Assembly (NCBI GenBank): GCA_030077755.1
Contig: JAQJZZ010000007.1
Location: 496,001 to 560,000, forward strand
Direction: 5' to 3'
Source of the DNA: Filosporella fistucella
Taxonomy: Eukaryota > Ascomycota > Leotiomycetes > Helotiales
DNA length: 64,000 nt
The notes beneath the pieces were generated by a model. The model was not told the origin of the DNA. It saw nothing but the letters and a program-made list of their open reading frames with translations, and did no database searches. The translations under genes were made by a program, and so were the position numbers. This document shows positions 171 through 45,949 of the stretch, in pieces. Within the stretch, counting starts at the first letter, position 1. Every line of letters begins with the position of its first letter.

Positions 171-637
171 TCATGACTTCAACATTTTGTTCCTCTTCTC
201 CTTTCTCTTTAATCTCTCGACTCGTTTCCGGTGCATAGTCTCAGCTAACTTCTCGTATCTTGCTTTTTCCTCTTTCGCTGCGCGCTTTTCCTTGATCTTT
301 TGAATTTTGGCCTGGAGAATTGTTAGTCTGGTAAAAAAAATAAAAATACCCCACCAGGACAACGAACCTGTCTGTCTGCCTCCTTCTCATCTTTCATTTC
401 CTTCTCCTTGGCTTTCACTGCTGCCATAGCTTTGCGCTCCTCCTGTCGCTTTTCATAATTGGAATTACCGGCTTTTGGCCTGAATGCAGCTCTAGGTTCA
501 TGCCATTGTTTCCCTGCAAAAATTTAGATATTAATTTTCTTCCCACCATGATTAAGATGCATACCATTCTTGCGCATTCCCTGAGGAGCGGTAATCGAGC
601 TTGAAGAAGCAGCTTCGACTGCAGTATCTGTCGACAT
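171..637 (-). CDS. CGR1: rRNA-processing protein Cgr1
   Basis: Small basic coiled-coil protein of the Cgr1 family, needed in the nucleolus for pre-rRNA processing of the 60S subunit. Three exons on the minus strand: 637-565, 513-368 and 311-171, giving 119 residues, close to the yeast length of 120. The N-terminal half carries the conserved GMRKNGKQWHEP block; the C-terminal half is almost all Lys/Arg/Glu and ends with the family signature [21 protein letters not shown]. Both introns have GT..AG ends, and the join [13 protein letters not shown] reproduces the family alignment. It is divergent from the mitochondrial carrier gene across about 770 bases. No regulatory signal is obvious. Family assignment is secure from the C-terminal motif. 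Confidence 0.93.
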
Positions 638-1409
638 GGTTAATGCTGAGACAATGGATTCTATGACGGAGGTTGAAGTTGGACGAAGGTGGGTTGCAGA
701 CTCGTCCAGATTGGCTTATCGATTTGATCTCGGGAAAAAGTTAAAAAAGGATCTGATAAGAATTTTAGCGCTAGTTGCGCAACACCTCGAATTTTGTGCG
801 TGGTTTTTTCCTCCTCTGCAGAAAACGTCACCCTAACACTGCCGATGACTCCATAATTGTCCAACATTGCCCACTCGTGGTGTGCAAACTCACAAATTGT
901 ACTCTAGTGTCTATGCGGGGTTTCCTCTTAAGAAAGAGCTCACCCTGACTCTTCCTTGACCGCTTCTCGCAATGCTACCACGATAGGCTATCGATAAGGG
1001 TCGACGACAACAACTTCACGAACTCATCTGCCAATTCTTTACTCAATCTGCACATAATTGATCTAAAAGTTTCGATGGGATCACAGTCATAGCAAGAAGT
1101 GCCTCGACGCCTTCTTGCCTCGCGCACCAACAACGTTGAATTCACAATCCTCCGGGTGTCGTCCTACTTGTCACCATCCCCGCCCGCCGCAAAGGATTGT
1201 GTAACCTCGGCCGCCTTTCGACTGCCTGATTGACATCCACCAACAACCATATTGTCAGTCTGAGTAGCGACGAACTACAATTCGGGGAATCGAGACGGTG
1301 TTGGAAGTTGGTCACGCCAAGCCGTACAAAATAATACCATACGAAGGCTTCATAGAACCCCACCACCGATCGCGGAAGCTCCACAGACATTACCCAGGTG
1401 GAACACAAA
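638..1409. other. divergent intergenic region
   Basis: Shared upstream region of CGR1 (minus) and the mitochondrial carrier (plus). Open frames here are short and resemble no family. I see no repeat or RNA gene. Confidence 0.6.
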
Positions 1410-2486
1410 ATGTCGATAGCTACCACTTCGGATTTTGCTGAGACCTCTCCAGCATTTACTGTGACTGGCAGAGAAGCTCTAATGGACGCCGTTGAGGATA
1501 TTGTTTTTGGCTCGGTGAGCTTTACCCTGGAACATTCCTGAATGTATTACTGACCCCTCCAGATTGCCGGTGTGGCAGGCAAATATATTGAATACCCATT
1601 TGACACTGTTAAAGTTCGTCTTCAATCGCAGCCAGATCACCTCCCTCTTCGTTATACTGGTCCACTTGACTGTTTTCGACAATCTATTCGCAGCGATGGT
1701 CTCTTGGGACTTTATCGCGGAATATCTGCCCCCCTAGTTGGTGCAGCGTTGGAAACATCGTCCTTATTCTTCTGGGAAAGAGTGGGGCGAGAGGGACTCT
1801 TCAAGGCTGGACTCTACAAGCGTGATAAACCACTACCATTGTCGGCATTGTGGTTAACAGGTGCCATTTCTGGTGCTTTCACAAGTTTGGTCCTCACTCC
1901 AGTTGAGCTGGTCAAATGCAAAATCCAGGTTCCAGTCACAACAAGCACCGATGGAATGATTCACAAGGCGCCAACACCATTGACTGTCATTCGAGAAGTA
2001 TTTAAACACCAAGGGCTTAAAGGTTTTTGGAATGGTCAATTGGGAACATTGATCCGTGAGACCGGGGGTTGTGCCGCCTGGTTCGGCAGTAAAGAGACGG
2101 TCACTCTTCTCCTCCGCCATCTCAATGCTAAGAATCACTCTGGTTCAGGAAATCCGAACTCTCAAAATCTTCCTATTACATCCTCGGAATTGGATCTCGC
2201 TCCTCTTCCTCTCTGGCAACAAGCAGTGGCTGGTGCTTCTGCAGGAATGTCATATAACTTCCTCTTCTTCCCAGCCGACACCATCAAATCCCGCATGCAA
2301 ACCGTATCCACCACCTCCACCGCCCCCCAAGTTAAATTCTGGACCGAGGGGGTGGCAATCTGGAGGCAATATGGCCTTAAAGGCTTATATCGAGGCTGTG
2401 GCATCACAGTCGCCAGAAGTGCGCCGAGCAGCGCATTTATTTTCATCATATTTGATGCTCTAAAAGCCCGTTTTCATTTCTCGTAG
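1410..2486 (+). CDS. Mitochondrial ornithine/basic amino-acid carrier (ORT1/ARG-13 type)
   Basis: Six-helix solute carrier of the mitochondrial inner membrane (SLC25). Exon 1 is 1410-1514 and exon 2 is 1563-2486, giving 342 residues. All three carrier repeats show the PX[DE]XX[KR] signature: [20 protein letters not shown] and [10 protein letters not shown]. The residues after the first intron, [17 protein letters not shown], and the block [13 protein letters not shown] match yeast Ort1 and Neurospora ARG-13, which exchange matrix ornithine for cytosolic protons or basic amino acids and link mitochondrial ornithine synthesis to arginine synthesis. The start gives a short polar leader before helix 1, as in Ort1, and the 48-base intron falls at a codon boundary. 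Substrate is inferred from similarity; a carnitine-type carrier is less likely. Confidence 0.9.
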
Positions 2487-4116
2487 CATAAGCATATCAT
2501 ATGATATGTGGTGGCATTTGTGATAGCATGGGTTCGGAAGAGAGCGTGCATTTGGTGTTCTTTTGCATATGAGCGGATAGATTCCTGGGTGGTCAAAAGT
2601 CGGCAAGGCGTTTATAGACGGCGGGTTCCTGAAAATGGGAGATTTAGAATATTGTTGCCGGCATATCTGCGTTGTTTGCCATATCTTCTCATTTTCATAT
2701 TCCTTGGGAACTTTACAAGCGTAGGTATCAAGGATTTGTGAATATGCATTCCTTTTTCTAAGAGTCTGCAATTTTCATCCAAGCAGTTGACTAGATCAGA
2801 GGAGATGATAGTAGTCATCGACCGGGCACTTCGTCCCATCTATTACTATACATACAGTTGTTGACCTCCAATCTGTTTTCGTCGTCGTCATTTATGGCTT
2901 TTCTTCTATTGTTGTCAGATCATACTCCTTTACATAATATTTCATCGACTTTTCATATTCTATCCCTTACGGGGTCACCTAACCCCCCAAAATCTTCTAA
3001 AAAAACATGACCCTTTTCATCTCCACTATTTACGTGCGCTATTAGGGTACTTGTGCCATTCTGCTAGTTCCTGTTCCGTTCGCCGTGTCTGTTTCGCAGA
3101 GATGGAGGGCTCACATCGACGACCCCTTGAAACCCAATTTATGGTAAAACATTATCCCGTACCACGTTCTCGTAATACAGCTTTTGTTTGTATGTGCCTA
3201 CGCACCCCAGAAGTAGTACGCTCTAACACCGACAGCAATAACTACTGTAAAAGCAGCAAGTTTGGCTTTTTTCTAAGCTGTGGTTGCAACTTTTATAGCT
3301 TCGTAAATGGATTTCCGAGAAGACTGGGGAGTATGAGATTCACCCCTCAAAATATCGATTCACCTTGTGGGTTCTACTTCGACCCTACAGCAAAAATCGA
3401 ATTTTAGCTGTCCAAAACCCTGCCTTCGGATCTTGCCCCTTCTTAAGGTTATGTATATAAAGCTGATTCCCTCATTGGGAAACTATCAACGGCCTCATCT
3501 ACGAAAACTCGGTCACATTCATGGATCACCGGCCTTGAGCTAAGGAATGGAGTTATATCTCAATTCTTCTAAGAGGGTTGTGACCCTCCATGACATTGAC
3601 GTGCAAGTTATACTTGCTTAGAGTAGGTATAGATAGTAGGAGTATATGGGAGGTATCGCGAAGTTCGGTTGCTATATCCAGGAAATAGAGGAACCGACAC
3701 TGAAAAGTCAAATGGCGGTTAGAGATATTGACGATAAAATTATTTGACAATAGAAGCATTGATTCCACTCTCGAGAATAATTCGACGAATTGAGTTTTCA
3801 ACCACAGAAGCAAGGGAACAAATGTAAATATAGAGTCGGGACAAGGCTGCTACTTAACGCCCATATTTGGCAAGTGTCACTACACGTGTCTTGTCACTGA
3901 TAGGTATAATTTTGGCGTGAGGCTGGCATGCAAGGGAGAGATCGTACGACGGCTGCCCTCCACTTCGTCCAACATGTTTTCTGGATTTTTGCGCTTCGCA
4001 AATACTCGAAGTACGCTTCTATTCTTCTCTAAGTCTTTTGATACGTGTATTTAGAAGAGGTCATCTTTCCGAAAAGTCTACAAGGCGCCTGATTTTGAAG
4101 GGGATAATTCGACAAA
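2487..4116. other. intergenic region, no supported gene
   Basis: About 1.6 kb between the carrier and the bHLH locus. The longest open frame (3051-3407, plus, 118 codons) has Cys-rich, low-complexity composition and no recognisable domain. I see no RNA gene or clear repeat. Confidence 0.5.
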
Positions 4117-4924
4117 ATGCAAGTTCCTCAACCTGTCGTGCCTCACAGCAGCTGCTCGGGCGATTCCGAGGAACTCCAATCTATGTAGGTCAATCTCATT
4201 GCAAAACATTTAGCAAACTCCTGACATGTCCTTCACAGCCCTAAATCTCCCGGTCCTAGTACCGAGTATAAGCAAACTCATGAGAATACATCTGATGACA
4301 GGACTAGCGAGCCAAGCAGCTCGGGAATTGCATCGAATGATAGCCACAGCTCAGCTCCATCAAGTCTTCACATTATCTCATCGAACAATGATGGACTACT
4401 GGTTTACACTTCGATGGAGAGGACCAATAGCACGAGTTTCTTTCGGTTGATACAGGCGTTCTCAGCACCAAAACCTTGCAACAGCGAGAGGGAAATACCG
4501 GTTCTTTCGTGGAAATTCCTAGGAACAGCCTTGAAGAAGATTATCGGCCTATATGTCAGTATTCCTTCAGCTCGGAACACCGAGTATACTATGGTCTAAC
4601 TGTGTTCAGAGTGCCACCCCGTTCCCCTACCAAATGCAGGCCAAGTTCGATGTTCCAGCAAGAGTTGGCCAGCATGCGTCAGCATCACTTGGGATTGATA
4701 CCTGGCATGCGACCGCAGATGATGGTCAGGACCAGAGAAGCTATATTGGCAGACAGTTCAGTCCTGACCTGGGCCACAAGCGCCCGGCGCATAAAATGGT
4801 CGAGGAGAAATATAGAGAGCGGGTGAATAAGCAGTTCGAGAGAATATTGAATATGGTTCCCGCGGAACCGAAGACTGTTTGCGGTGAGGAACAAGATTGG
4901 GAGATGGTGGACTTGCTAGAATAG
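4117..4924 (+). CDS. Putative bHLH protein with truncated helix-loop-helix (uncertain model, may be decayed)
   Basis: The last exon clearly encodes the basic region and helix 1 of a fungal bHLH factor: KRPAHKMVEEKYRERVNKQF, with the H..E..R (H5-E9-R13) DNA-contact pattern, at about 4780-4845. A possible model is 4117-4184, 4239-4554 and 4610-4924 (232 residues). The second intron would start with GTCAGT and has a CTAAC branch point 10 bases before its AG. After helix 1 the frame reads through an acidic tail and stops at 4922-4924, so the loop and helix 2 needed for dimerisation are missing. A GTGAGG at 4884 could be a further donor, but the acceptors I tried give no helix 2. The upstream reading frame is ambiguous. 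Treat the DNA-binding fragment as real and the rest as provisional. Confidence 0.4.
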
Positions 4925-5897
4925 AAAAATTTCTGAGGGTGTTTACTTCCATAACAGATCGGGAGACGTTCTGACGGCAATGCTGGTCACAACCATAGAG
5001 TTCCTAGTGGATTATCCTTGACGATTTGAGAGGTGATGATCTTCAGGCCACTGACTGCACGTCCAATTTCCGAGGGTGTGATAGGCATTGGAAACTCATG
5101 CCTCATATCATACATGGTGGAATATATACTAACAGATATATATATCAAGGAGAGACAATGATTAGGATAAAGATATTGATACCGAAGACAAAAGTAGCAG
5201 CTATCTAAATTTCGCATGTTGAGGAGCATGATGCATGCTCAATTTAATCAAATCCTAGGAAGGGTTTGGCTTGATTAGCGTTGAAGCTATATAGGGTTAT
5301 CAGATCTATGCACCCACAGCTAAAAGAATCTTCTGCTCGTTCTGAATATGCCTGGATGTAAGTACTTCACTTTAATAAAAAATTTGTAACAATTACCTGT
5401 ACCAGACTGTTATCAAGTGCTCACTTGATTTGCAGGAGAGTAGAAAGCGAACCACAATCGTGTGAGTCAGTCTGGACTCTTCCTCTTTGTCAGGAGTTTA
5501 TGAAATAAATAAGAAATAACATAGGCAGAATATCGAAAGTTTCGGATTGAGGGTGATTCTAGATGCTCCTCCAACAAGACGAACTTTATTATAATATTCT
5601 ATTTGATTTCCAAGTAAAAGTCAAAATACGGATACTTATCTCGCGATAAGAGACACGGTTTCAAGAGCTGCATATAAGTTACCTTTCAAAGTGCGTGTCT
5701 GAAAGAGAATGGATAAATCACCAAAGCATACAACGAAGCAAAGTCCGTTCAAAAGCGCGGGAGCGAAAGTAGGGGAAATGAGATGAGCTTGGGTCTTGCT
5801 ACTTGTTGCTTAGACTAGAAGGGTTCGCTTTAGAGGTAGTGTAAACAAGCTATGAAAGAGAAGGCATTGGGAGTTTGAATTTTAGAGGGGCCTATGT

Positions 5898-6037
5898 GAT
5901 GAAATAGTTGATGGTAGGAATACAACGGACGGTTTGAGTCGTTGACGAAAGTTGGAATTGATATTAAGATGAAATAGTTGATAATAAAATTATAATCGAT
6001 AATTTGAGTTTTTGACGACAGTTATAATTGATAATAT
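5898..6037. repeat. 70-base tandem duplication with RIP-like transitions
   Basis: Two adjacent copies, 5898-5967 and 5968-6037, both begin GATGAAATAGTTGAT and share TTTGAG and TTGACGA blocks at the same offsets. By eye about 16 positions differ. Roughly ten are G-to-A or C-to-T going from copy 1 to copy 2, so copy 2 is markedly AT-richer. This direction of change is what repeat-induced point mutation (RIP) leaves in ascomycetes, although RIP normally needs longer duplicates. Confidence 0.75.
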
Positions 6038-6342
6038 ATACTTCTTATCCAATCTTTTACTAATATGCATCTATACTTTGAAACTATAAAAGAAAATTTG
6101 AATCTTAAGCTATATCATTTCTCTCCCTTAGCTATTTTAGTCCTAAAACTACCCCTTTGTATACACAGGAGTCCTAACACGCTTGGACGCCACCATCTGG
6201 GGCATGTGTCCGTGTCTTCAAAGCTTGGTAAGAGTAATGGAATGTGCAAAGTATTTAAAGTGTTTGAACGGACGTGAGCTGGGATGGGCAGCAAAAATTA
6301 TTGTTATTCACTCTAACTTCTTGTCTGCTAAGTGAGCAAGTA

Positions 6343-6490
6343 TTGCTTCGAAGACGAATATATATCGGAGAGGAGAGATGTACAATGTAGAGTTTGCTGT
6401 TCACTTGCTAAGTCTTTCTCTGAAAAGTGAATCCAAATCAATAGCTTTTGCATTGAAGACGAACAAGTTCCGGATGAGTGAGATGTGCAA
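6343..6490. repeat. weak direct repeat, copies 105 bases apart
   Basis: Segments at about 6343-6385 and 6448-6490 share TTGC, GAAGACGAA, CGGA and GAGATGT..CAA blocks in the same order. Similarity is partial, so an old duplication is likely but not certain. Confidence 0.35.
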
Positions 6491-6723
6491 CAAAAGCTAA
6501 GGTAGTGCACATAGGAAATTCTACAATGGATAGCGAACTTGGTCAAGGGCATGTCAATGTGAAGATTGCAAGAGTAGGACCATGCAATTCCAGAACTGTA
6601 GAAAGTCATGTAATTCACCAAATGCCATAGGCCTAGCCTAATTGTAATAATTCATTTCATCCCTCAATTCATCCATCTCGAAGTCTACGACCCTAATCCC
6701 AAAATCTCAAGTGGTATAGCAAT

Positions 6724-7433
6724 TTACTCCTCCTTCTCATCAACGTACTTGGTATCCTTGGTCGCAGGGCTAGCTTTGACTTCCTTATCCGCAATGTTCC
6801 AGTTGTTCACTACACACAATGATCAGGGTAATTCTGGCTAGTGAGCAGGCAAAACTTACAGTATCCAGTGCCAGCACTCAAATAAGTAGCAAATCCCAAC
6901 CATCCAAGATATGGAGCCAAAGCCCAACCTGCAACTGGATCAACTTGTCCCCAAACATAAGTCAAGTATCCGGTAACTCCAGTCAATGCAACAATATCAA
7001 CAGTAGCTTCAATTGGGCGCTTGAGAACGAAGAAGAGGGGCATCCAGATGAGGTTAAGGCCGAGTTGAATTGTATAGAGAGTGGCACCTTGCTTGGTAAG
7101 AAGATGCTTTTCGGTGGATGCAAATGGAGACATCCCGGTATCATAAGCTCGGTATGCGGCAAAACCCATCAGACCATAAAGAACAGTCCATGCTGGGCCG
7201 AATACGTATGGAGGAGGACGATAAGGAGGTTGCTTCAAGGCCATATAGGTCTTTTGAGTCTCCTTAGCTATATGACATTAGCAGATGCATATGATTGATA
7301 CCGCGAGAAGATTGAACATACGCCGGACTGTGAATCCAACTGCTGTTCCAAGGGCAATTGGAAGCAAAATGGAAGCTGCCGGATTGGCGAAAACAGCTGC
7401 TGGCAGCGTAAGGGAAGGGATGAAGGTCGTCAT
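6724..7433 (-). CDS. TspO/MBR family membrane protein
   Basis: Five-helix membrane protein of the TspO/peripheral benzodiazepine receptor family, which binds porphyrins and sterol-like ligands in mitochondrial or other membranes; the exact fungal role is unsettled. Exons on the minus strand are 7433-7322, 7267-6860 and 6809-6724, giving 201 residues, slightly longer than the usual 160-190. Diagnostic blocks are YMALKQPPYRPPPYVFGPAW and WTVLYGLMGFAAYRA, then NLIWMPLFFVLKRP and a final helix ending YLSAGTGYLNNW. The joins VRP|KETQKTYMALK and GTGY|LNNW restore the family sequence. An acidic, Lys-rich cytosolic tail (KYVDEKEE) follows the last helix. It is divergent from ARS2 across about 1.2 kb. 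Confidence 0.92.
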
Positions 7434-24744: not shown

Positions 24745-27096
24745 CTAAACCTCATAGTAGTAATTATCATCCAACCCATCTCTCGAAGGCACGATTCCTG
24801 CTCCCTCGGGAGGACCCGCATATCCATCATCCAATCTAACATTCAGTAATCGGATCTTCAGACCGTAATCACTGACCAGACCAACAAGCTTATTCGTCTC
24901 AGCTGTAATGGGTGCTTGATTGAGCAGCATGAGAAGTCCGTCCAACCATTCAGAGGCAAGACTATGGGTCTGAGGATTCAAAGCCAAAACACATCGCTCT
25001 TTTTGATCGCCTTGAGACTTGTCGCCAATCATACTCATAATTGAGATTCTCGTCATGCTCTTTTTTGTATTTGATTTTATCGTTGAAGCAGTCGAAATAC
25101 TGGAATTCTCATCTGGCCCGGCGGTGATATTCGAGACGACAGAGCTGACGAACATAAGATCGATTTTGTGAATCAAATCGTCTAGAGGAGGATCCTTATC
25201 GGTTTGACTTTCAAATTCGCTGTAATGCAGGAATCTTCTATTGTGTGAGAGTCTTGCGAAAAGCCATCCCGTAGAAGATGGTCCACGATTTCCATTCGGA
25301 TAACCATCATCTGTACTGATCTTGCGTTTGACAATGAATGGGAACCAGGCTCCTTTCGACAAACATCGGATTCGTTGTTCCTTGACAAATTGGAGAGCCT
25401 CGTTCTTGAGTTCCTCTCGGACATTCATGAGGTGTTTGCCCCATCCGTCCTCAAATGTCAAGTCCAATAGTTCCATTTGCAGCTCACGAAGGCGAGAATA
25501 CTCAAATTCAAGCAACTCTTCTTCGACTTCTTGTACATCTTTGGTACGTGGAGCTTGTCCGACAACTTGCTCGACTAATATCCGTACCAATTCTGCAACT
25601 TTTTCGAAATCTTGCTGCTCAGCGCCTGTGGCTTTCCATAATCTGAAGAATGCCTGCAAACTAGATGCGTGTAATCTGGACCATTGCAGGAGTAGGGGAT
25701 GGAAGATCTTGTCGTAATTCTTCATGCCGTCCAATATCAAATAATTCTTCGCATCCTCGACATCTGAGTTGTCGACCTCGAAATGCTCGTAAAGTATAGT
25801 AGTGACAGTGAGACTTGACCTCGCAATGGGACATCTTTCGTGCAAAGGGCGCGAGGACTGCTCCAGTAGCAGCTTTTGAAATCCATCTTCCTGCTTTCGC
25901 ACATAATCTGTCAGGTCCATCATACCCAAGAATCCAGTTGCATCAAACTCCCACGCCGGGCTCTCTGTCTCAAAACCTAATCGACGCCATTTCTCTGGAT
26001 TGTGCCGCCTGCTGCCTTTCTTTCCTCCATCTGCCAACTCCTCAACTCTTGAGCCTCCCCCGTTGGTGAGCTCTTTTCGTTCTGGTGCACTAGCCAAGTG
26101 TAATCCTTTCAGAGCCCTCCTATGTTCTGGTCTCTCCAGATCCACCTTCACCTCCCTCCATTTATTTAAAAGAATCTTAGACAAAGCTTGGAACTCAAGT
26201 AGAGGATGTGCCAAATCTTGCAGGGCAGAACTCTGCATGAGAATATAAACTGCCTTGATAACCCCCAGGTCTTGCAATCTCTTTATAAACTTTGGCCAAT
26301 CTTCTCCTGTTCCACTGCTCTTTGAGGTATCCTTTCCACCAGTCTCGTTTGAGATCGCATCTCTCATAAGAGCATTGAGCAACATCAAAGCGTTCGCACA
26401 GAGCGCATGGTCTGCCGAATGCAGTTGTGAGACTACCATTTCGAAAAATTGAGGATAAACGGCGACAGCAGGCTTCAAAGCTCGAAACCCAAACGCCCCT
26501 GGTATTCTGATAGCCCCTCCTGAGGATTGTGGATGTGAAACAATCGCTACCAGTATCGACATTGCCCCGCGCAGGATATTGACCAAAGGATGCGTCACGA
26601 TCAATTCCACTAGACGTTCTACCAACTCCCCAGCACCGGTAGACTCGAATATATCCCATCCCATATCGACTTCCAGTAGACGTGTTAGGGACTGCAGCGA
26701 GTATGCGAGTGTATTGCCGCCAGTCGTCATGATAAGTCTGCGCAAGACATTGAGGCCCCCCGAAGATATGAACACATCTGCGAACGAAGGATCATTGATC
26801 GATGATTGTAGTTTGAACACTGCCATCTTTCGCATAGCATCCTCATCGCTCTGCAGGCGTGAGAGCAGAGAGGGAATGTCTGTTTGATCCATCTTGTCGC
26901 GTGCGCGTTCTGTTTGTTGGAAGGATGTGATCAATCTTGAGAAGCGGTGTGATTTCTTTTTATCCAGAACATTGGCAGACGGGTATGGAGGGGTATTTTG
27001 TAGCTCAGTCGAAAGCAATTTGCGTGGTGTCTGGGGAAATCTGTTTTGAGACAGAAACTTGGTCGAAAGTCGCGTCGGGGTTGAGGGACCGTGCAC
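24745..27096 (-). CDS. ELMO/CED-12 domain protein
   Basis: Single uninterrupted frame of 783 codons. From the inner Met at 26892 (MDQTDIPSLLSRLQSDEDAM) the protein has an armadillo-like helical part with repeated Leu-rich helices, then an ELMO domain (roughly residues 380-560; DATGFLGMMDLTDYVRK and LLEQSSRPLHERCP), then a PH-like domain (from about KGAWFPFIVKRK) and a short tail. Animal ELMO/CED-12 joins DOCK proteins to activate Rac; yeast Lmo1 works with Dck1 on Rho5. A fungal role in Rac or Rho5 control, and so in polarity, mitophagy or oxidative stress, is inferred. The start is uncertain: 27096 adds 68 Ser/Thr/Pro-rich residues that may be leader sequence. It is divergent from the kinase-ankyrin gene. 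Confidence 0.85.
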   Translation of the reverse strand: MHGPSTPTRLSTKFLSQNRFPQTPRKLLSTELQNTPPYPSANVLDKKKSHRFSRLITSFQQTERARDKMDQTDIPSLLSRLQSDEDAMRKMAVFKLQSSINDPSFADVFISSGGLNVLRRLIMTTGGNTLAYSLQSLTRLLEVDMGWDIFESTGAGELVERLVELIVTHPLVNILRGAMSILVAIVSHPQSSGGAIRIPGAFGFRALKPAVAVYPQFFEMVVSQLHSADHALCANALMLLNALMRDAISNETGGKDTSKSSGTGEDWPKFIKRLQDLGVIKAVYILMQSSALQDLAHPLLEFQALSKILLNKWREVKVDLERPEHRRALKGLHLASAPERKELTNGGGSRVEELADGGKKGSRRHNPEKWRRLGFETESPAWEFDATGFLGMMDLTDYVRKQEDGFQKLLLEQSSRPLHERCPIARSSLTVTTILYEHFEVDNSDVEDAKNYLILDGMKNYDKIFHPLLLQWSRLHASSLQAFFRLWKATGAEQQDFEKVAELVRILVEQVVGQAPRTKDVQEVEEELLEFEYSRLRELQMELLDLTFEDGWGKHLMNVREELKNEALQFVKEQRIRCLSKGAWFPFIVKRKISTDDGYPNGNRGPSSTGWLFARLSHNRRFLHYSEFESQTDKDPPLDDLIHKIDLMFVSSVVSNITAGPDENSSISTASTIKSNTKKSMTRISIMSMIGDKSQGDQKERCVLALNPQTHSLASEWLDGLLMLLNQAPITAETNKLVGLVSDYGLKIRLLNVRLDDGYAGPPEGAGIVPSRDGLDDNYYYEV

Positions 27097-27788: not shown

Positions 27789-30700
27789 ATGGGAAGAGAA
27801 ACAAGTACATCTGACTTTGGCGGCTCTGGAGGACTTGATGATGGGCTATCAGCTGGTCAGACCCAATTCGAGGCAGATGTTGCACGAGGAGCACTCTCGT
27901 ATGGAGGTTTCATATCTATGCTTCAGAGCATAGGCGTTGATCAGAAGACAGCAAGGATGACGCCGTTCGGAACACCGATTGGAAGGGGACATTACTTTTC
28001 TGTGTATAGGCATTTAGTCTCACCGTCCGATTACGAGTCTATGCATCTATCGATATCCAGGACCGGAGATAAGGAACCATTTTATAGACCCGTATTAAAG
28101 ATCAACACGCCCGTGGCAATCAAGCGCCTCAATATCCGAAATGTTGGAGGCAAGATAGACGTCACAGAACCAGGGCAGCTATTCGCTATCTCAAGAGAAA
28201 TAAAGGCGTTGTTACATCCCAATCTGCGAGATCACGAAGGAATTGTCAAATTGCAAGCCATTCTGTGGGAGGATGGGCTTGGAACTGGATACGAGAATGG
28301 AGCTGCTTTGTGGCCAAGTCTGGTAATGGAGTATTGCGAGACAACCCTAGCAGATTATCTCCTAGTGAAACCTCTATCTCATCTACAGAAGACAATGCTC
28401 TGTACCAAGATTGGCGACGCCCTCGATGCAGTTCACTCCGCAAACATCTTCCATGGCGATCTCAAAGCTGAGAACGTGCTCCTGAAGATCGATATATCTG
28501 GGTCAATAGAACCCAAGCTTGCGGATTTTGGTTCTTCAATCCTGATCAAAACGGAAGATGGAAAAATTCTCTACCATGTCTCTGGGACCGAATTATGGTG
28601 CGCACCGGAGGTAAAAAATATACTTACTAATACCAAGTAATGACTGACTCCAGTTCTAGTGCCCTGGAGACTTTTCTAACATTGAGGAAATCGAGGCAAC
28701 AGACAGCTATTCCTTGGCTTTACTTATGTTGCTGATCTTGGCAGATGGCAGAAATCCATTCGAGGAATTTGGAACAATACCAAAAGATTGGAGCCGACGG
28801 AAAAAACTCGACGCTATGCTGGAAATGAAACGGGAGAATCGTTTGTACCATCTAATTTGTGGAGCTGAAGGTTTTGAGAATATTCCGCCCTTCGCACAGA
28901 CTCTTGCGACTATGTTGATTGCAGACCCAAGAGAAAGAATTAATGCTATGGGCAGATTGAATCTGAACGAAATGCTTGAGTCTGCAATCCACGGCATAGA
29001 GTCTCTTGAATTCGGGCAATCCCAGCAAGAGCAAGAACAAGATAGAGACGCAGCTCTTGATTTCGTGAATGGGCTTCGTGAGCAATATAATTTAAAGTTG
29101 GCGTCGGAGGACATCGGTGTGGAATCGAACCACGATATAGAGCGAGATCTTCGAGAACCGTTATCTTTCGTTTCCATTTTCGCTGGAAAATCTTTCATAC
29201 CAGACTGCGTAAGTTCGATATCCTGTTTAAATCATGAGACAAGCAAGAAGAGGGTGGAAGCTGATAGTCTAATTGTTGACAGGCAAGTCTATCATCAGCC
29301 AAAATTAGAGCTGGCTTAAACCTCGCAACGAAGACTCGGATTGTTAGTGAGCTTGTTTCAATCTTGGAAGAAGAGGGATTGTCCCCGTCACGTTCGAGAT
29401 GCGCAGAATGTTGCAGGCATTCAATAATAGACGCCGGGACAGGATGTCTAACTGTAGAAACCCTTCTTGAAGAGTTGCAGCGTCACGTTCAACATCCAGG
29501 AAATGACCATACATGTCGTGCACTCATCGATGACATGAAAGATCCACAAGATATTTCAATATCTGCAGCCATATTCGGCAGCATTCGTGCACCTGGTGGG
29601 GAACGAAAAGGGACTGCTATGTGGCAATTATTTCTCTCTGAGGCCATCGGATTCGGAACTCCGAAAAATCCAGGTCGTGCTCTTCAAATACTTGAAGACG
29701 CTTGTACTTCAGGCTTCTCGGCAGCTGCGATCTATGTACTATATGCTATCCGCACGAATCAGGCTATTAATCCAAATCTTCCTGTACGGACTTGGCTGGT
29801 ATCTCTGGTGCTGTTCTCAGCAGGTATTCCCTCTGACGCTTTCGATGCTCTGAGTAAGATTGACCAACCGTTATCACGAACAGTTGCGGTCGCAAGAAGC
29901 AAGGTATACAATGGTTCTACAGCGTCCTTTCCCAACCTGCAATTCAACTCCTTCTCGCCGCAAGACAACATAGGTTTGGAAATAATTCCAGGATTCAAAT
30001 GCGAAGATGGAGTGCACATCGTACAAGATGAGTTGTTTGAGAACACACTGCTTCATCTAGCCGCTGGCTCAGATAATTCAGACCTGTCAATGATAGCATA
30101 CTGTACCGATGTATTGGGGATTGATGTCAATACTCCTAATGCTGCAGGTGCCACGCCACTGCTTTTAGCATGCCGTGCAGGGAGGGAGGAGAAAATTTTG
30201 AGGCTATTAGAGTTGGGTGCGAGTGTCGAATCACCGTGTGACAACGGAGAAACTCCTTTGCACTGGCTTGGAATATTGCCAGATCCGGCGAGAGTGTTCG
30301 GCGAACTCCTATCGAAAGGTGCTGATATCAATGCACGGGTTGAGAAACCGAAGCTCTTACCAAACTACATCGATGGATGTAAAACTTTTTACATACCTGG
30401 GCCACCAATTGTTTGGGCTATGGCTCTGGACAACGAGGCTGCTGTAGAACTTCTCATTCAGGCAGGCGCTGACCTCACATCGATCTCACTATTTGCGTGC
30501 CAGCCGCGCCTTTCGAAGTTTCTCCCGAAATTAATAAGGGAAACGAGTTTCAAGACGACTCGTGAGGATGCTTATGTAATGATGGCAAGTTGGAGTCAAT
30601 GGAATAGCGTTGGGCAAATTAAAAATTGGGTGCAGCCCAAGATGCAGGAAGAATCGCTGGACTTGGTCCTGTCTTCTGTTGGGGATTTCCATAGTATGGA

Positions 30701-31832
30701 AGAGGTATTTGACTTCTTTCACCCGTTGGTTTCCGAAGCAGTTTCAGAAAGCCCAATCGAGATTCTGGAGATTGTACTCAGGAGACTTGGCAAGAGCGTG
30801 GCAACAGTGAAATATCCAAGTATGGAACACACCGACTACGTGCAGTCTCCAATTTCACATGCTTCATGGGCTCATCATTACTTTGTTCATGAAGCAGCGA
30901 AAAGAGGGGATGCTGGCATCCTCAAAGCGATACTTCGAATGAACGTCAGCGCTTCTGCGGTAGACTCATTCGGCTGGACAGCATTGCATGTGTTATCAGC
31001 TTACAGTGACAATCCTGACTGCGTGGACATACTGATCTCGCACGGCGCGATAAGTGTGATAGATTATCGCATTCCGCCCCTTGGGTTTTCAGCTTTCATG
31101 AACGCTGTGGCGCATTGCAATTTCAAAGTAGCTGACGCCCTCCTATCACACATTCCAGAAGACGAAAGGAAAAGACTTCTTTCAAACCATGATGTACACG
31201 GCACGATCCTTCCAAAAGCATCATTGATAGGCAACTTCGTTGCCTGGGCGCCATATTTTGGCAAGAGGCCCCTCGAGTATCTGTGCAATCTCCAAGAAGG
31301 TCGTGATGAGATTGATTTAGTATTCAATGCCAGCCTTATGGATGATTCAACACTCCTGATGTTCGCGGCTGGATTTTTCTGTGACGCCGTTTATGATAAA
31401 AGCTACTTCGCAAAATGGAGGCGAAGGACAGCGTACGACTTCCTAATTACGATGTATTCTGAGCCTCGACACATCAATGCAAAAGACAAATGGGGAAGGA
31501 CTGCTCTACATCTTGCAGCTGGCGCAGGAAATCTTGACATGGCGATTATGCTCATGGAACATGGGGCCGACTTGAACGCCGTGGATGATATGGGACTGAA
31601 GCCAATTGATGTTCTGTTCCAGCAGGATCCCCCGCAGCTCCAAGACGAGAGGGATTCAAAGAATATGATCATCTCCACTTTCGAGGAAGGCAGGAATGGG
31701 ATTTACACTGCACTGAAAAACAGGGGGGTATCACGTGATTGGCCATCGGGGAGTGCGGGTGAAATGACTGAGGATTATCCAAGACCTTACGCGAGGTCGT
31801 TGTACGAATCAAAAGTGGCCGACAAAGAGTAG
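27789..31832 (+). CDS. Protein kinase-ankyrin repeat fusion protein
   Basis: Exons 27789-28610, 28660-29208 and 29283-31832 give 1306 residues. The kinase domain (about 55-370) looks active: glycine loop GTPIGRGHYFSVY, Lys112 in TPVAIKRL, Glu137 in ISREIKALL, catalytic HGDLKAEN with Asp224 and Asn229, DFG at 246-248, and CAPE rebuilt by splicing at 271-274. A linker follows, then a Sel1/TPR-like stretch near 565-620 (ALQILEDACTSG), then ankyrin repeats at about 710-810, 990-1055 and 1190-1235 (GRTALHLAAGAGNLDMAIML). A Cys cluster (CAECC) lies near 500. Kinase plus ankyrin recalls animal RIPK4/ANKK1, probably by convergence. It ends 36 bases from the stop of the HeLo-pseudokinase gene. Substrate is unknown; an immune or incompatibility role is inferred from its neighbour. 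Confidence 0.88.
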
Positions 31833-31868
31833 TGCTGCTAAGCCGTATACTTCGTATAATTAACAAAC

Positions 31869-33632
31869 TCAAGCATAGCATTTCGCAAGCTGATAGACAA
31901 CATCGAAAAGGAATGACCGATGTAAATCAAGAACTTCCGTTCCTGGCTCTAGCTTGGTGTCCTTGTCCACACTTTCTATGAAAGGCCCATTCAAACATGA
32001 CTCAACCACATTTTGGTATATTTGACCACATTTTGACCCTAGGCGCGGCGTTTTCTTCATCAAGAAAGCTTTCCACGCTTCAGGACTTCTCATGTCTCGT
32101 GATGTACAACATTTATGAGCTATTCTCCACAGCCCGACTTCCCATAGTACAACCCCAAGAGCAAAGATATCATATTCCTTGCAAAACCTTGGTCTCTTTC
32201 GATTATTTGCTGGCCAAAGAGCAGGGTGACGATACACATTGTCCGGATCGCGTGCATACTCTAATGAGAGGGCCGAGGGACAGTCTGGGCGAGAGAAGTC
32301 AAATCCAACTAGATAAGGAAGAGAAATATCACTGCCGTCTCTAGATGATTCGGGACCCTTGATGAATATGACATTTTGGGAAGAGATATTTTTGTGTAGC
32401 CAATTTGAGGCGTGGATTTGGAGGATGACGTTGCAGAGGTGAGAGGCGATGCGGAATCGGTCGCCAAGAACCGGCGTCGTTGAGTTCTTGTCGATAAAAT
32501 CATACAGAGATTGAAGTCGGAAACTTGTTGGAAAATTTGATCTGGTGATAGAATCTTGGGTTGGTCGCTCCAACAAAAGGCCGTATCGCTCTATCATGAC
32601 ATGGCTATCTTGAAAGAACCCAACACATCTCATCAGTCCCAGCTCAGTTGCCCTAGCAGAACCAAGTAAAAATGCTAGGGCTTTAATTCTTCGCCGAATG
32701 ACACCCTTGTCGTTTTCATCAGAATCTGGATTTGAATCAACCTGTCGCCATTCAACCAGAACCAGTTTTGTGTTCCCTTCCGCATCTGTAGCAAGGGTGA
32801 GGTGTCGGCGACTCGGTCGGTCTGCCTCTGCCGGGTTTGGATTTTGTACCTGAGAGATATTCCAGCGAAGGCTCTCCCCAAATGAAGGGTTCGTTTCCTC
32901 AATAGCTAACGCAGTCCTCCTGAGATCAGCGCATGCTGATAGTACTTTGCATATTTGACCTCCCTGTGGATTTGATTCAACCTCGCTCAACATTGCCCTG
33001 TCATTGATAGATGGTAGAATCACTGATGGCAAGCCCTTCGCGAGAGCGAGCCATCTGTTCACAGGCAAGCAAACCCATAAATTATCATTAATCGAGCGTA
33101 GATCTTCAACGATCCTGTTGAACTTCGCATTGTCAGACAACGCCCATTTGATCTTGAGAAGCCTGGATGTAGATGCCTTGACTGATCGCTCGGTTTCTCG
33201 ACGGCTGACTTGTGCCAACTCGATTGCTGGACATGAACGGGCTCCTTCGAGGTCCAGCCCTTGAAGATCAATATCAACTGCTGCTCCAGTGCTAGTTTGG
33301 GAGGCTTCAGAAATGCGCACGTCGTATCGCGCCATCAGCACTCGGCTGTCGCCCAGCAACGCTTGGATTGATTCCAACATCTTCACCACTATTTCCTGCG
33401 TTTGAGGGGTCTCGGATCGGAGCAAGCGACATTGTTGAGACGGAGATATGCCAAGATATTGCCCCCATAGACGTAGCTTCTGTCTTTCGATGTCTAGCAA
33501 GACACTTGTACGATAGTAATCTTTACCAAGGTTCTGAGCTGATCGTACGAAGACGTCGTAGGCTGAGTTGCATGTCTGAAAGAGTGTCAAAAGTCCTAGA
33601 AGTCCTAGGCCACCAATTACCGGTTCTGCCAT
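31869..33632 (-). CDS. HeLo-domain protein with C-terminal pseudokinase
   Basis: Single-exon frame; start chosen at 33632 (MAEPVIGGLGLLGLLTLF) because the HeLo domain begins there, giving 587 residues; an upstream in-frame Met at 33737 would add 35. Residues 1-190 match the HeLo fold of HET-S (LGKDYYRTSVLLDIERQKLR, then KWALSDNAKFNRIVEDL), a helical bundle that inserts its N-terminus into membranes and kills the cell. The C-terminal half has kinase-fold landmarks without catalysis: HKN at 413-415 for HRD, Asn420 kept, GFDFSR for DFG at 443-448, no clear VAIK Lys (VLVEWRQVD), but a normal Asp-Ile-Phe-Ala-Leu-Gly helix F. I see no amyloid (HET-s, sigma or PP) motif. MLKL-like logic is inferred. 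Confidence 0.88.
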   Translation of the reverse strand: MAEPVIGGLGLLGLLTLFQTCNSAYDVFVRSAQNLGKDYYRTSVLLDIERQKLRLWGQYLGISPSQQCRLLRSETPQTQEIVVKMLESIQALLGDSRVLMARYDVRISEASQTSTGAAVDIDLQGLDLEGARSCPAIELAQVSRRETERSVKASTSRLLKIKWALSDNAKFNRIVEDLRSINDNLWVCLPVNRWLALAKGLPSVILPSINDRAMLSEVESNPQGGQICKVLSACADLRRTALAIEETNPSFGESLRWNISQVQNPNPAEADRPSRRHLTLATDAEGNTKLVLVEWRQVDSNPDSDENDKGVIRRRIKALAFLLGSARATELGLMRCVGFFQDSHVMIERYGLLLERPTQDSITRSNFPTSFRLQSLYDFIDKNSTTPVLGDRFRIASHLCNVILQIHASNWLHKNISSQNVIFIKGPESSRDGSDISLPYLVGFDFSRPDCPSALSLEYARDPDNVYRHPALWPANNRKRPRFCKEYDIFALGVVLWEVGLWRIAHKCCTSRDMRSPEAWKAFLMKKTPRLGSKCGQIYQNVVESCLNGPFIESVDKDTKLEPGTEVLDLHRSFLFDVVYQLAKCYA

Positions 33633-37922: not shown

Positions 37923-38713
37923 GGTTTGGGAGATGTGTTGAGATGGATATTTGGGATGGGGAAGGTGGGAGAGATATGGATAATGGTGCGGAGGATGGTG
38001 TTATCGCCTGGATGGTAGGGCTGACCTACTTCGTACACCATCATCAGCCACTGTCACCTAGAATCACCACACCATATGGTCTCCTGAAGCTACGTTTGCG
38101 GCGCATTTGCAGGGTTGTTGCTACCCTGTACGTGCCAAGTATGTTGCTTGGGCCAGATAGACGAGTGAGCTTCCTGGTGCTGTATGGACCTCAAAAGTTG
38201 CCTCTATATAAAGAGCTCTGACATAAAATGATATGGCTACGATTGAAGATGTTCTCGTAAGGATTACAATAATAGCTCGTAAATTCTGTGGGTCAAACAA
38301 AATAAAGCATTCGCTAGTCGTCAGAACTGCGAAGACATGGACTGAGCTTTAAACTGAGGTTCGCCTCTATAACGATAGCAGAAATTGTGCTTATAGCAAA
38401 GTGTGAAAGCCACTAGCGGGTATCATGCATCCCAAAGACGGATTGACTGTTGACTATATTCAACATGTAGCAGGACGGCTGAGCTTCCAGCTGTTCGATG
38501 GCTTCGCAAGCCCCAAGCGCTTATTCATTGCAATCCATCATCACAACCCCTTTACGATACCGACGTCAGCCTTACATTACCGCTGATGGCTTTTCGCTTG
38601 GTTGTAGCAAAAATCAAAACACCCAAGCTTCCCAAATATTTTTTCATCATCCATCTTTCAGCTCCTCCTCTTATACAAATCTATTCCTAGCACGCAACAC
38701 AACGTACACAAAC
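37923..38713. other. divergent intergenic region
   Basis: About 790 bases between the broken minus-strand gene and the first HET gene. Nothing recognised. The in-frame extension of the HET frame back to 38498 is judged leader sequence. Confidence 0.5.
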
Positions 38714-40717
38714 ATGTCACAATATCGCAAGCTAGATGTCAGCAGGAATGAGATCCGTCTACTGCGTTTGATCCCTTCCTCTGACAAGGAAAGTCCCATC
38801 ATCTGTGACTTGGTTTATACCTCCTTGGATCAAAACCCACCAGAACGGTCCTACGAAGCTCTTTCGTATACCTGGGGCGGATTTGCAGAAAGTCGTGTAG
38901 TCGTCTTGAACAATACTCAATCCGACATCACAGATAATCTGCATGCGGCATTGGTGGAACTACGGCTTCAGAAGGAGGATCGGTATTTATGGGTAGACGC
39001 TCTCTGTATCAACCAGTCCGATATCTTGGAGAGAAACAGAGAGGTCCTTCGAATGCTTAGTATCTATCAAAATGCACAACAGGTCATCGTATGGCTAGGA
39101 CTCGGAATCCTGCACACTGGTTCTGCTGTGGAACATCTTGTCTATCTCGCGAAGAAGTGGGACGAACGTTCTCTCTCGGCGTTTATAAGACGAGTTTGGA
39201 ATTGGCTGGAGGACCTGTTCTTGGGATCTACTCTGTTTCTTGAATCTTTCACCAGGGCACTCTGGAAAGCTCAAACACTAAGGGTCTTGTTCCTTCATTC
39301 TGCTTTTTGCTTTGCATGGTATAAGTTTGATGGCGAATGGGTCTTGACGGGTACTTTTTGGTTAAGTTTTCTCTTATACAAACTGATTCCCGCAATAGCG
39401 CAATTATTCTTGCGTTTTCAGGAAGAGTTTGAAGTTGTATCAAGCTCTCGCCTCCTAGCCAAGACGCCAAAACCTGTAGTGCTGGAGGGTATCAAGGATA
39501 TATTCGAAAGTGAGTGGTTTAGCCGTGTCTGGATCATCCAAGAGATTGCAGCTGCATCTTACGCAGTGGTACAATGTGGTTCGCATCACGTTCCATGGAA
39601 TTCTGTTATCGCTGCTTGCAAACAACTTGCACATGAGACTTCTAGCAGCTGGACAACACATCCTTATGCGAATACAGGTTTCCAAAGGGCATTCAACTTG
39701 ATATCTACACTGTCGATCGGAAACTTATCTGACGAGCGTGTCCGCGAGAAACGGTCCTTATTTTATCTTCTGAGTCAGTTCAACATCTCCAAGGCGACTA
39801 AAGACCACGATAAAGTATACGGTCTTCTTGGTCTTTGTATCGAGATACGGGAGGAGTGTGAAGGTGTGTGTGCTTTGCAGGTTAATTACGACAGCGACGT
39901 GGAATTGGCTTATACACAGGTAGCCAGATATATCATCGAGACTTCGGGGAACCTTTGCATCCTGCGTGCCTGCATTGGGGTTCCGAAGTGGACATTGCCA
40001 ACGTGGGTTCCTGACTGGAGCATTGCAGTGTGGAGACTCAACCAAGGGAACCATGGATTATTCCAGTTAACTGGAAAGCCTGATACGATTCCAGTCGCTG
40101 TGTTCTTAGAATCTGGAAAGCGTATCAAAGTTGAAGGGTTCATGATTGGAAAGCTTGAGAAGGTAATAATGAATACTAACTCGGGTCTCATCCCTCTAAT
40201 GCGGGTACCGATGAAGCTTTTTGTGAAACCTTTTGTCAGCTTACTGTTGTGGTTGATTGCGCAGCCCCTGACCTTTGTAGTCTTGGCTTTGTTCGCGCGT
40301 TTGGCTGGTATAGTCGATGAAAAATTGGGTAAGGAACTTGCGATATTTATTAATTTTGTTCGGCGCGAGGTGGATCGCAATCGAGGACAGGATGAGGGAG
40401 CAATCACGTTCCAGCACGATGAAACCGTGACGTCGCTTCAGCAAGAAAGGCTCGGGAGATGGTTTTCCACAACTCGTGTTCTCGGTCTCAATTATTTAAG
40501 ATGGCCCTGCCACACATGGGCTAGAGAAGCTCGACCAGGAGATGTTGTGTGTCTATTAAAGGGGACTGACAGACCCATGATTATGCGACCTGGAGATGTT
40601 GACTGGAAACTCATTGGGCCTGGGGGATATGGTGGATTGGAATTGCTTCTCTGGGAGCGTGCTGTGGAATTATATTCCAAGACAGAGTGGCCGTTGATGT
40701 CATTTGTTATTAGCTAG
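38714..40717 (+). CDS. HET-domain protein with inserted membrane segments
   Basis: Single-exon heterokaryon-incompatibility protein, 667 residues from MSQYRKLDVSRNEIRLLRL; an upstream Met at 38498 would add 72 low-complexity residues. The HET domain starts near residue 47 with YEALSYTWGG and continues LWVDALCINQSD and QVIVWLG (to about 130). The expected partner block SEWFSRVWIIQEIAAA comes only at 267-281, after an insertion of about 130 residues with hydrophobic runs at about 187-203 and 211-233. A further hydrophobic stretch lies at 506-533. HET domains trigger cell death when unlike strains fuse. Membrane attachment is inferred from hydropathy by eye. C-terminal WPCHTWAREARPGDVVCLL matches the usual HET C-terminal beta region. 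Confidence 0.9.
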   Translation: MSQYRKLDVSRNEIRLLRLIPSSDKESPIICDLVYTSLDQNPPERSYEALSYTWGGFAESRVVVLNNTQSDITDNLHAALVELRLQKEDRYLWVDALCINQSDILERNREVLRMLSIYQNAQQVIVWLGLGILHTGSAVEHLVYLAKKWDERSLSAFIRRVWNWLEDLFLGSTLFLESFTRALWKAQTLRVLFLHSAFCFAWYKFDGEWVLTGTFWLSFLLYKLIPAIAQLFLRFQEEFEVVSSSRLLAKTPKPVVLEGIKDIFESEWFSRVWIIQEIAAASYAVVQCGSHHVPWNSVIAACKQLAHETSSSWTTHPYANTGFQRAFNLISTLSIGNLSDERVREKRSLFYLLSQFNISKATKDHDKVYGLLGLCIEIREECEGVCALQVNYDSDVELAYTQVARYIIETSGNLCILRACIGVPKWTLPTWVPDWSIAVWRLNQGNHGLFQLTGKPDTIPVAVFLESGKRIKVEGFMIGKLEKVIMNTNSGLIPLMRVPMKLFVKPFVSLLLWLIAQPLTFVVLALFARLAGIVDEKLGKELAIFINFVRREVDRNRGQDEGAITFQHDETVTSLQQERLGRWFSTTRVLGLNYLRWPCHTWAREARPGDVVCLLKGTDRPMIMRPGDVDWKLIGPGGYGGLELLLWERAVELYSKTEWPLMSFVIS

Positions 40718-43786: not shown

Positions 43787-45949
43787 CTACACAATAGTGA
43801 CTACAGTCTGCACATTCATATCGAACCAAGACGGCGAGAGCATCATAGCAACTCCCACGCGACTATAAGTCCCTTCAACAGTACGTTTTTCCAGAACCAA
43901 GCCAGAGATTTCGCGCTTGAAGAGTGATGTGGAATGATGTAAAGTGGCGAAAAAGGAGAGTTGGTCCCAGTCTGTATTCCTCCAAACATCAAATGAAATC
44001 TGGGGTCTTTTGCCTCCGACGCCTCCAACAGCACTAGAAGAAGTATTATAAAAGTCTCGCTCGTCGTTGTCTCCCGCGACTTCCTGAGATCGTACTCGAG
44101 AGTAGATTGGTTCAAAGGGGGTGAGGACGCCTCGTAACTTGATGCGAGCATCAGAAATCTGCCCATATGGGTTTGTTCCTGGGATAGTAGTACTTATGTC
44201 CACCACATCGCATGCTGCCCAGCCGGGAAACAGTCGACTGGTTACGAGGTCAAGTAGAACATGATGAACCGGCTCTGCCCATGCCGTCCACGAAAAAGAC
44301 GGCGCGTAGACAGAGGCGCGTCGATGCGGCTTATCTCTCGCGGGCCTACGCACCTCTGTAGAAAATTTCTTTAGCTTGGTAGAACGAGTGACTTCCCAGA
44401 GCAACTGGTGTGCAAGTTCCTTCTCCCACATCCCCGCGATGTATCTCCCTGGCTGGAAACTCTCTGCTAGACGCGCAATTCCGGAAAGGGCAGGAAGACG
44501 GTCTGCTTCAAAGGTGATGTTCAACCCGGTATACTCCTCGACTATCTTACTCCATTGATAATTAAATGGGTTCTCATTCTCCTCAGGTTTGCCGGAAAAT
44601 GCGCGGGCTGCCAGCTTTCGAAAGTGCTCAAATGTAACTTGCCACCCGGAAACAAAGAGGATGTGTCCTTTGCATTCACATATATCTTCCTTGCGACACT
44701 GGAAGTATAGCTCTCTCTTGCCAAAGTACAAAACTCTGGGACCTAAAATCCGCTCTTGTAAGCACCATGCGCGCAGAAATATTGGGACGCCGTCTGCTTG
44801 GTCTTGCAGAACACCTTTCCAGCGAGAATGATGATTGATATGCCTGCGTATATTCACTGATCTGCTGCTACCGTCGAGTGATTTGAAGGAAAGTTCTTTG
44901 TGTGTCTCTCGAGGCCGCAAGAATCCGGTGGAACAGTTCTCGGCTTGACAGGCGGCGATCACTACCCACGAACCACCGTATATATCTGCCATTTTCGCTG
45001 CCTCGATCTCCCATTCTAGAACATCATCTTGGACAATGCAGAAAGAATCGATCCATAAGTATCTCGCTCCCAGCCAGCGAGTGACTTTTATGGCATCTTT
45101 AAACGTCGTTGGCATCTCGTTTGAAGGGATGCTAAGCTCTCTGGATTTGATGTTGGCTTTGATTGTTCTCATGGCGATCGCCCCTCCCCAGCAATGTGTA
45201 AGTGCAACGTATTTGAATGTATGCTGCGATCCAGGCGGAGATACCAGATGGATACCATCCTCGTCAGACTCTCCAACGTATATAAGTCGCTTTGGAGTCT
45301 GCACCTGATGGGGAGTGCCACATACAGTATGAGTGGTCACACAGTTCTCAATCCAGCCCATAACCTTAAGCTGACAACCTGGTGATAATGGATCTCGAGA
45401 GATTTCGTCAAACGTATCTGGTTTCCGGCAAAAGAAGTTTTTGTAACTATCAGCATTTCCTATATTAAAGTTAGATTACGCTCGCGGAAACCAGGAAACT
45501 CTTACCCGGCGTTGCGAACAAATCAAAGGTTTGTTGCCATTCATCAGGAGGAATTTTCCGATCGGGTGTGCCTAATCCCGTCAGCAGAATACTCCTAAGT
45601 CAAAATCTGGGTCCTCTTAATTACCGTTTCTTATAGGCCAACCTTTGCTCGAATAGCTTATCGATAGATTACAAGGACTCATATTATCACGTTGAAAGTA
45701 ACCATTACTATCCGTACCACGCTCCAGGGCCGCTAAATCGCATAGGAGTGTGCACAAACTGCAACCGTCTACTTTCCCTTGAACTGCGGCTGAAATATGT
45801 AGCTTGTAATAATCAGACACCCGATTATCCAAGGACCAAAATGCTCGACATCTTTCGCAAGCTAATAAGGCTGTCCGCTCTACATATGGTGCTCCGCGGT
45901 ACGACATCATCTTAGAGGTACGAGATCTCTCAAATAGATTTTGAGACAC
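43787..45949 (-). CDS. HET-domain protein with N-terminal Cys motif
   Basis: Minus-strand exons 45949-45625, 45571-45506 and 45459-43787 give 687 residues. The N-terminus has Cys pairs typical of one HET class: C31xxC34 in LLACERCRAFW and C63xxC66xxxC70 in GCSLCTLLC, perhaps metal binding. The HET domain spans about 214-370: YVALTHCWGG, the Leu-rich middle, ARYLWIDSFCIVQDD and ADIYGGSWVVIAAC. The rest is the usual long variable region, with RAWCLQERILGPRVLYFGKR as the conserved W-x-x-Q-E segment. Both short introns preserve frame and carry consensus ends. Role: incompatibility-type cell death or another recognition reaction, by family. This is the second HET gene within 7 kb. Confidence 0.9.

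Follow-up and report, generated by a model that had tools for sequence, protein, structure and literature searches.

In animals, the RIPK3-MLKL system joins an active kinase to a protein in which a pseudokinase is fused to a membrane-active helical bundle. Reviews of fungal cell death, in the excerpts used here, tie HeLo domains to MLKL and describe activation by NOD-like receptors (NLRs) and amyloids; one of them also reports HELL domains in proteins with kinase or pseudokinase domains and poses the conservation of necroptosis in fungi as a question (PMC12881547). In excerpts of the same literature, the HeLo or HELL executioner of the het-S/nwd2 and HELLP/PNT1 clusters adjoins its sensor gene (PMC3321046, PMC12881547), fungal gasdermin/protease clusters of the HET-Q1/HET-Q2 type set a pore-former beside an enzyme fused to ANK, TPR or WD40 repeats (PMC10197012), and plant MLKL proteins are given as bona fide MLKL homologues (PMC12881547). 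Here we describe a gene pair from the ascomycete Filosporella fistucella (Leotiomycetes; Helotiales), found in a 64,000-nucleotide stretch of contig JAQJZZ010000007.1 (positions 496,001 to 560,000 of the forward strand; hereafter the window) of assembly GCA_030077755.1 (45.8 Mb, 19 contigs), in which a gene for a kinase with ankyrin repeats, A_K, lies beside a gene for a HeLo-pseudokinase protein, A_H.

The window pair combines the same kinds of parts as RIPK3-MLKL, and the PDB structures matched by profile comprise MLKL, among others, for the pseudokinase, whereas RIPK1 ranks near the top for the partner kinases, although many kinases score alike. Unlike the animal system, the fungal pair consists of two adjacent genes, its kinases carry ankyrin or, at a related locus, TPR repeats, and the modelled pair proteins show no RHIM core. 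MLKL keeps the VAIK lysine, whereas in A_H this position, set by eye, is a glutamate. To our knowledge, plant MLKL has no linked repeat-kinase gene. An executioner gene adjacent to a partner gene is a layout shared with het-S/nwd2 and HELLP/PNT1, as far as the excerpts describe them; in contrast to their NLR sensors and amyloid templating, the window partner is a kinase, with no NACHT or NB-ARC match at E 0.01 in exons 1 and 3. As in the gasdermin/protease clusters, a pore-former would stand next to a repeat-bearing enzyme gene, the enzyme being here a kinase rather than a protease and the executioner a HeLo-pseudokinase rather than a gasdermin, and two-gene pore-former/sensor clusters of that type, as excerpted, are a precedent that supports reading the pair as a module (PMC10197012). 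By its predicted features, the pair has the layout of a fungal two-gene cell-death cluster, with a putative pore-former adjoining a repeat-bearing partner in a recurrent arrangement. In the open-licence PubMed Central literature on fungal cell death (excerpts of PMC12881547, PMC10197012, PMC9815663, PMC12258605, PMC5485727, PMC3321046, PMC4986451 and PMC4835503), no linked repeat-kinase partner of a HeLo protein is described, the pairs there being HeLo/NLR and gasdermin/protease only; this agrees with a first-pass annotation of the window, which knew of no such linked pair, and an earlier description is possible in subscription papers or preprints, which lay outside this scope.

Results

The window gene pair

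A_K, on the forward strand, and A_H, on the reverse strand, are convergent, with 36 bp between their stop codons (Table 1). The kinase part of A_K contains a GxG loop at residue 64, K112 in VAIK, HGDLKAEN at 222 (catalytic D224), DFG at 246 and CAPE at 271, and Pfam places Pkinase on exon 1 (1.3e-18) and Ank_2 on exon 3 (5.1e-32). The catalytic motifs are intact, as in the RIPK family, and predict an active kinase. An automatic splice model with a longer intron 1 (1286 residues) was rejected, as it deletes the APE motif; the 1306-residue model was kept because the other partner kinases described below retain APE (PPE in locus F). Full-length homologues of A_H number 13 (P0002-P0014, 47-62% identity), and exon 3 of A_K has 10 homologues at 44-67% identity among the 120 of 495 matches listed, so the window genes are not chance reading frames.

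The N-terminal part of A_H matches the Pfam HeLo family (PF14479; 3e-28, 99.5 bits against a curated cut-off of 23.2, residues 9-192), and a profile built from 16 A_H-family sequences matched HET-s/HET-S HeLo structures in PDB at 4.5e-11. The C-terminal half of the same profile gave weaker matches, spanning 3e-4 to 3e-3, to kinases and pseudokinases that include IRAK4 (3.4e-4), LIMK1 (6.5e-4) and MLKL (1.6e-3); it is not closest to MLKL, since IRAK4 and LIMK1 score higher. DUF7580 was matched below its cut-off (1.2e-5, 25.5 bits against 27). In a structure model of modest confidence, the N-terminal part is helical and residues 245-587, approximately, adopt a kinase fold; no Pfam match at E 0.01 to a HET-S-type C-terminal prion-forming domain was obtained in A_H, whose C-terminal region is kinase-like. 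The first 25 residues are hydrophobic and among the best-conserved parts of the protein, with 60-84% identity to A_H among the 13 homologues, and they correspond in position to the membrane helix of HET-S.

By eye, the catalytic positions of A_H are occupied by E294 (VAIK Lys), N415 (HRD Asp) and G443 (DFG Asp). In an alignment of 34 pseudokinase sequences, some of them close relatives and thus not independent, with motif positions set by eye and counts taken over the sequences that have a residue there, glycine replaces the DFG aspartate in 31/34 and glutamate the VAIK lysine in 26/28, with aspartate at the HRD position in 4/33. Judged from this alignment, the degeneration of the A_H-family pseudokinase is fixed, not random. 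Within the loop standing in for the activation segment, Ser or Thr occupies position 456 in 28 of 33 sequences amid variable neighbours, and position 447 is Ser in 28 of 34. A_H has an MLKL-type layout, an N-terminal helical bundle followed by a C-terminal pseudokinase, and killing by it is a prediction from that layout. The first-pass annotation had described an intact kinase with ankyrin repeats lying tail to tail with a gene for a HET-S-type domain and a pseudokinase; its coordinates and residues (K112, D224, HGDLKAEN, DFG) proved correct on re-reading the window, and both descriptions were borne out, the first by the gene models, Pfam and the 36-bp gap, the second by Pfam, the homologues, the family profile and the motif alignment.

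Paired loci elsewhere in the genome

Five further loci of the same genome have a kinase gene beside a HeLo-pseudokinase gene, four of them kinase-ankyrin and one kinase-TPR. With the window as locus A, loci B (C16), C (C3) and D (C14) were found by comparing the genome kinase and HeLo match lists, and loci E (C1) and F (C12) were added through DUF7580 matches. Kinase and ankyrin frames occur at B-E and kinase and TPR frames at F; loci B, C, D and E are divergent, with 298-942 bp between modelled start codons, and A and F are convergent. The kinase and repeat parts of B, C, D and F, as well as the HeLo and pseudokinase parts of D, are adjacent same-strand frames unjoined by a splice model. DUF7580 is not matched at E 0.01 by B_H, whose pseudokinase was recognised by comparison with the family. 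All six partner kinases retain HxD and the catalytic Asn, with DFG in 5/6, and a Sel1-like stretch follows the kinase domain in several of them (weak Sel1 Pfam matches in B and E only, the others by eye). The RHIM core [IV]Q[ILVC]G is absent from both full window proteins and from ten other modelled pair proteins, among which B_K, C_K, D_K, D_H, F_K and F_H are partial. When the C3 partner kinase was used as a genome query, it retrieved itself and then the other partners at 4e-21 to 5e-9, so that the six partners occupy ranks 1-6.

The union of searches with pseudokinase queries gave 11 loci, eight of them with a Pfam HeLo match (A-E, C7, C10 and C13). A separate kinase match lies within 3.3 kb at 6/11; the partner at F was found by the C3-kinase query instead. 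At the remaining four loci, the nearest separate kinase match is at least 60 kb away, and a search of the surrounding 9.9-kb stretches with a partner-kinase profile found no second kinase. The chance of 6/11 is 2.7e-7 with 135 kinase matches and 4.5e-6 with all 219 first-look candidates; with the window excluded, the chance of 5/10 is 5e-6 and 5.2e-5, respectively.

In three other assemblies, presumably fungal, kinase and HeLo orthologues appear to share one contig (49163, 34650 and 4959 bases), as judged from identical longest-contig base counts and source rather than from read DNA. Such exact matches occur in 3/10 kinase-orthologue rows and in 0/109 other listed rows that give a length, unmatched rows being uninformative because only a cluster's longest contig is shown. 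On the 4959-base contig, 610 and 759 codons fill 4.1 of 4.96 kb, leaving less than 0.9 kb.

Recurrent adjacency could also arise if an ancient pair had been copied around the genome and the neighbours did not interact, as six pairs could come from duplicating one pair and a mirror-tree comparison of the six paralogous pairs found no congruence (r 0.04, permutation p 0.46; distances saturated, which may be the cause). The flanks of the six loci, however, show no similarity between open reading frames (455 of at least 60 residues, mostly from the window, the other loci contributing a few kb of flank each), so the repeated unit seems to be just the gene pair. In addition, two orientations occur, the paralogues remain adjacent at just 21-41% identity in aligned parts, and pairing extends to the three other assemblies and to single-chain forms. 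Linkage without function is very improbable, and the kinase and HeLo-pseudokinase genes are very probably functionally linked.

Single-chain forms

A kinase (HxD, Asn, DFG) and a pseudokinase occur in one chain in F_H (C12) and in the database proteins P0020, P0022 and P0025, the last three of which begin inside the kinase domain; P0020 and P0022 are 90% identical to each other. As partners that are separate elsewhere are fused here, these proteins support a physical link between kinase and pseudokinase. The helical stretch between the two domains gave a marginal HeLo match in P0020 (E 0.041) and no HeLo match in F_H or P0025. Pseudokinases often activate a partner kinase, and such chains, with a HeLo match at most marginal, would also suit a system that signals without death, in which the pseudokinase activates the kinase allosterically or acts as its scaffold, while the HeLo bundle serves merely as a membrane anchor. 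Against this stand the domain itself, HeLo being the domain of HET-S, and the hydrophobic N-terminal stretch, key to HET-S killing, which is among the best-conserved parts; we regard signalling of this kind as improbable.

Locus F carries fused and paired forms together. Within C12:816500-826400, one frame (3996-7146, reverse strand) combines a kinase, a pseudokinase and a part judged HeLo-like by eye, and it is convergent with kinase and TPR frames (176-3771, forward strand). At C6:1819500-1829400, a pseudokinase gene and a kinase gene of a different type are arranged head to head, and the former has no HeLo match in Pfam. At C2:489300-499200 (2337-3425 and 3860-5365, reverse strand), a HeLo protein adjoins an AAA ATPase-like frame recognised by eye, perhaps another executioner/partner pair.

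Features and neighbours in the window

Table 1. Positions of the gene pair and its parts, numbered from the first letter of the window.
Feature	Position	Strand	Details
A_K, kinase-ankyrin gene	27789..31832	+	exons 27789-28610, 28660-29208, 29283-31832; 1306 residues; ATG at 27789; presumed sensor
K112 codon of A_K (VAIK lysine)	28122..28124	+	placed via exon-1 frame
D224 codon of A_K (catalytic Asp, HGDLKAEN)	28458..28460	+	placed via exon-1 frame
Intron 1 of A_K	28611..28659	+	GTAAAA...TTCTAG, weak donor
Intron 2 of A_K	29209..29282	+	GTAAGT...GACAG
Sel1-like linker stretch of A_K, kinase to ankyrin repeats	29580..29745 (ends approximate)	+	LFLSEAIGFGT at residue 573
Ankyrin repeat region of A_K	30042..31700 (ends approximate)	+	Ank_2 5.1e-32
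Gap between stop codons	31833..31868		36 bp, convergent genes
A_H, HeLo-pseudokinase gene	31869..33632	-	intronless, 587 residues; presumed executioner
Pseudokinase region of A_H	31869..32807	-	about residues 276-587; DUF7580/kinase fold
S456 codon of A_H, candidate phosphoacceptor	32265..32267	-	conserved loop Ser/Thr; placed via frame
HeLo domain of A_H	33057..33608	-	residues 9-192; family profile matches HET-s/HET-S structures

An ELMO/CED-12 family protein with a PH domain is encoded next to the pair (24745-27096, reverse strand). Two HET-domain (heterokaryon incompatibility) genes, at 38498-40717 on the forward and 43787-45361 on the reverse strand, lie within 12 kb of the pair, and an immune-gene neighbourhood is possible.

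Discussion

From the architecture, the intact kinase motifs, the fixed degeneration of the pseudokinase, the recurrent pairing and the single-chain proteins, all of them shown here, we infer sensing, phosphorylation, the direction of control and killing by the pair. By analogy with RIPK3-MLKL, a repeat kinase would switch on a HeLo executioner. A_K would be both sensor and switch, its ankyrin repeats reading a signal that renders the kinase active. A_H would be the executioner, in which the pseudokinase restrains a HeLo bundle of the HET-S type that has a hydrophobic helix at its N-terminus. The active kinase may bind this pseudokinase and phosphorylate its loop, with S456 as the best candidate, and phosphorylation would free the HeLo domain, which would then form oligomers in the plasma membrane and so kill the compartment. 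We lean modestly towards this full activation mechanism.

Several observations weigh against it. A linked kinase is lacking at four loci, of which C7, C10 and C13 have a HeLo match and C4 does not, and the loop Ser is retained in the unpaired C7 and not in the unpaired C10. C6:1823k is not matched by Pfam HeLo, and its neighbouring kinase is of another type; when this locus is counted as a miss and the window is excluded, the chance of the linkage rises to 1.4e-4 and 8.7e-4, and the genome kinase list itself comprises 124/219 first-look candidates that were scored. At locus F, F_H has no Pfam HeLo match, its HeLo-like stretch being seen by eye only, F_K has DFE in place of DFG, and the C12 partner (5e-9) stands barely above GCN2 (3.6e-8) with the C3 kinase query. 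With the window kinase as query, the C3, C16 and C14 partners come first and those of C1 and C12 are not found at E 0.001. Oidiodendron maius, a leotiomycete and the sole species-named source among the 13 A_H homologues (60% identity), has no A_K orthologue among the 120 of 495 matches listed. The missing mirror-tree congruence and the reliance on base counts for the three shared contigs belong here as well.

The main rival of activation is control in the opposite sense, in which the kinase, or its mere binding, restrains the HeLo protein. The HeLo domain would then kill once the kinase is lost or inhibited through the action of an invader or, when cells have fused, of a mismatched allele, as at a guard/antitoxin or allorecognition locus. 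A killer tightly linked to its partner suits antitoxin logic just as well, the kinase motifs and the loop Ser/Thr are conserved, and the starts of the two HET-domain genes lie 4.9 and 10.2 kb from the pair. However, the persistence of the HeLo-pseudokinases C7, C10 and C13 without a linked kinase disfavours a strict need for an antitoxin, and the fungal two-gene clusters in the excerpted reviews operate by activation. A guard or brake is unlikely overall, and it carries more weight with us than the other rivals.

The first-pass annotation had proposed a kinase/HeLo module and held that homologues never linked in related genomes would refute it. Linked paralogous pairs were found in the same genome, together with orthologues linked on three other contigs as judged from equal base counts and with single-chain kinase/pseudokinase proteins, an outcome that favours the proposal; the gene linkage, the pseudokinase and the HET-S-type domain of that proposal stand, whereas mirror-tree congruence is lacking and four family members have no linked kinase.

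Whether fungi possess a phosphorylation-driven, necroptosis-like pathway, built on a compact kinase/HeLo-pseudokinase module with no NLR or amyloid and expanded into a repertoire with exchangeable ankyrin and TPR sensors, seems to us evenly poised. With a repeat-bearing kinase encoded alongside, the upstream partner that has been missing would be in hand, and the question of necroptosis conservation in fungi becomes testable in yeast with two genes. If this is true, the animal switch from kinase to pseudokinase killer would have a fungal counterpart.

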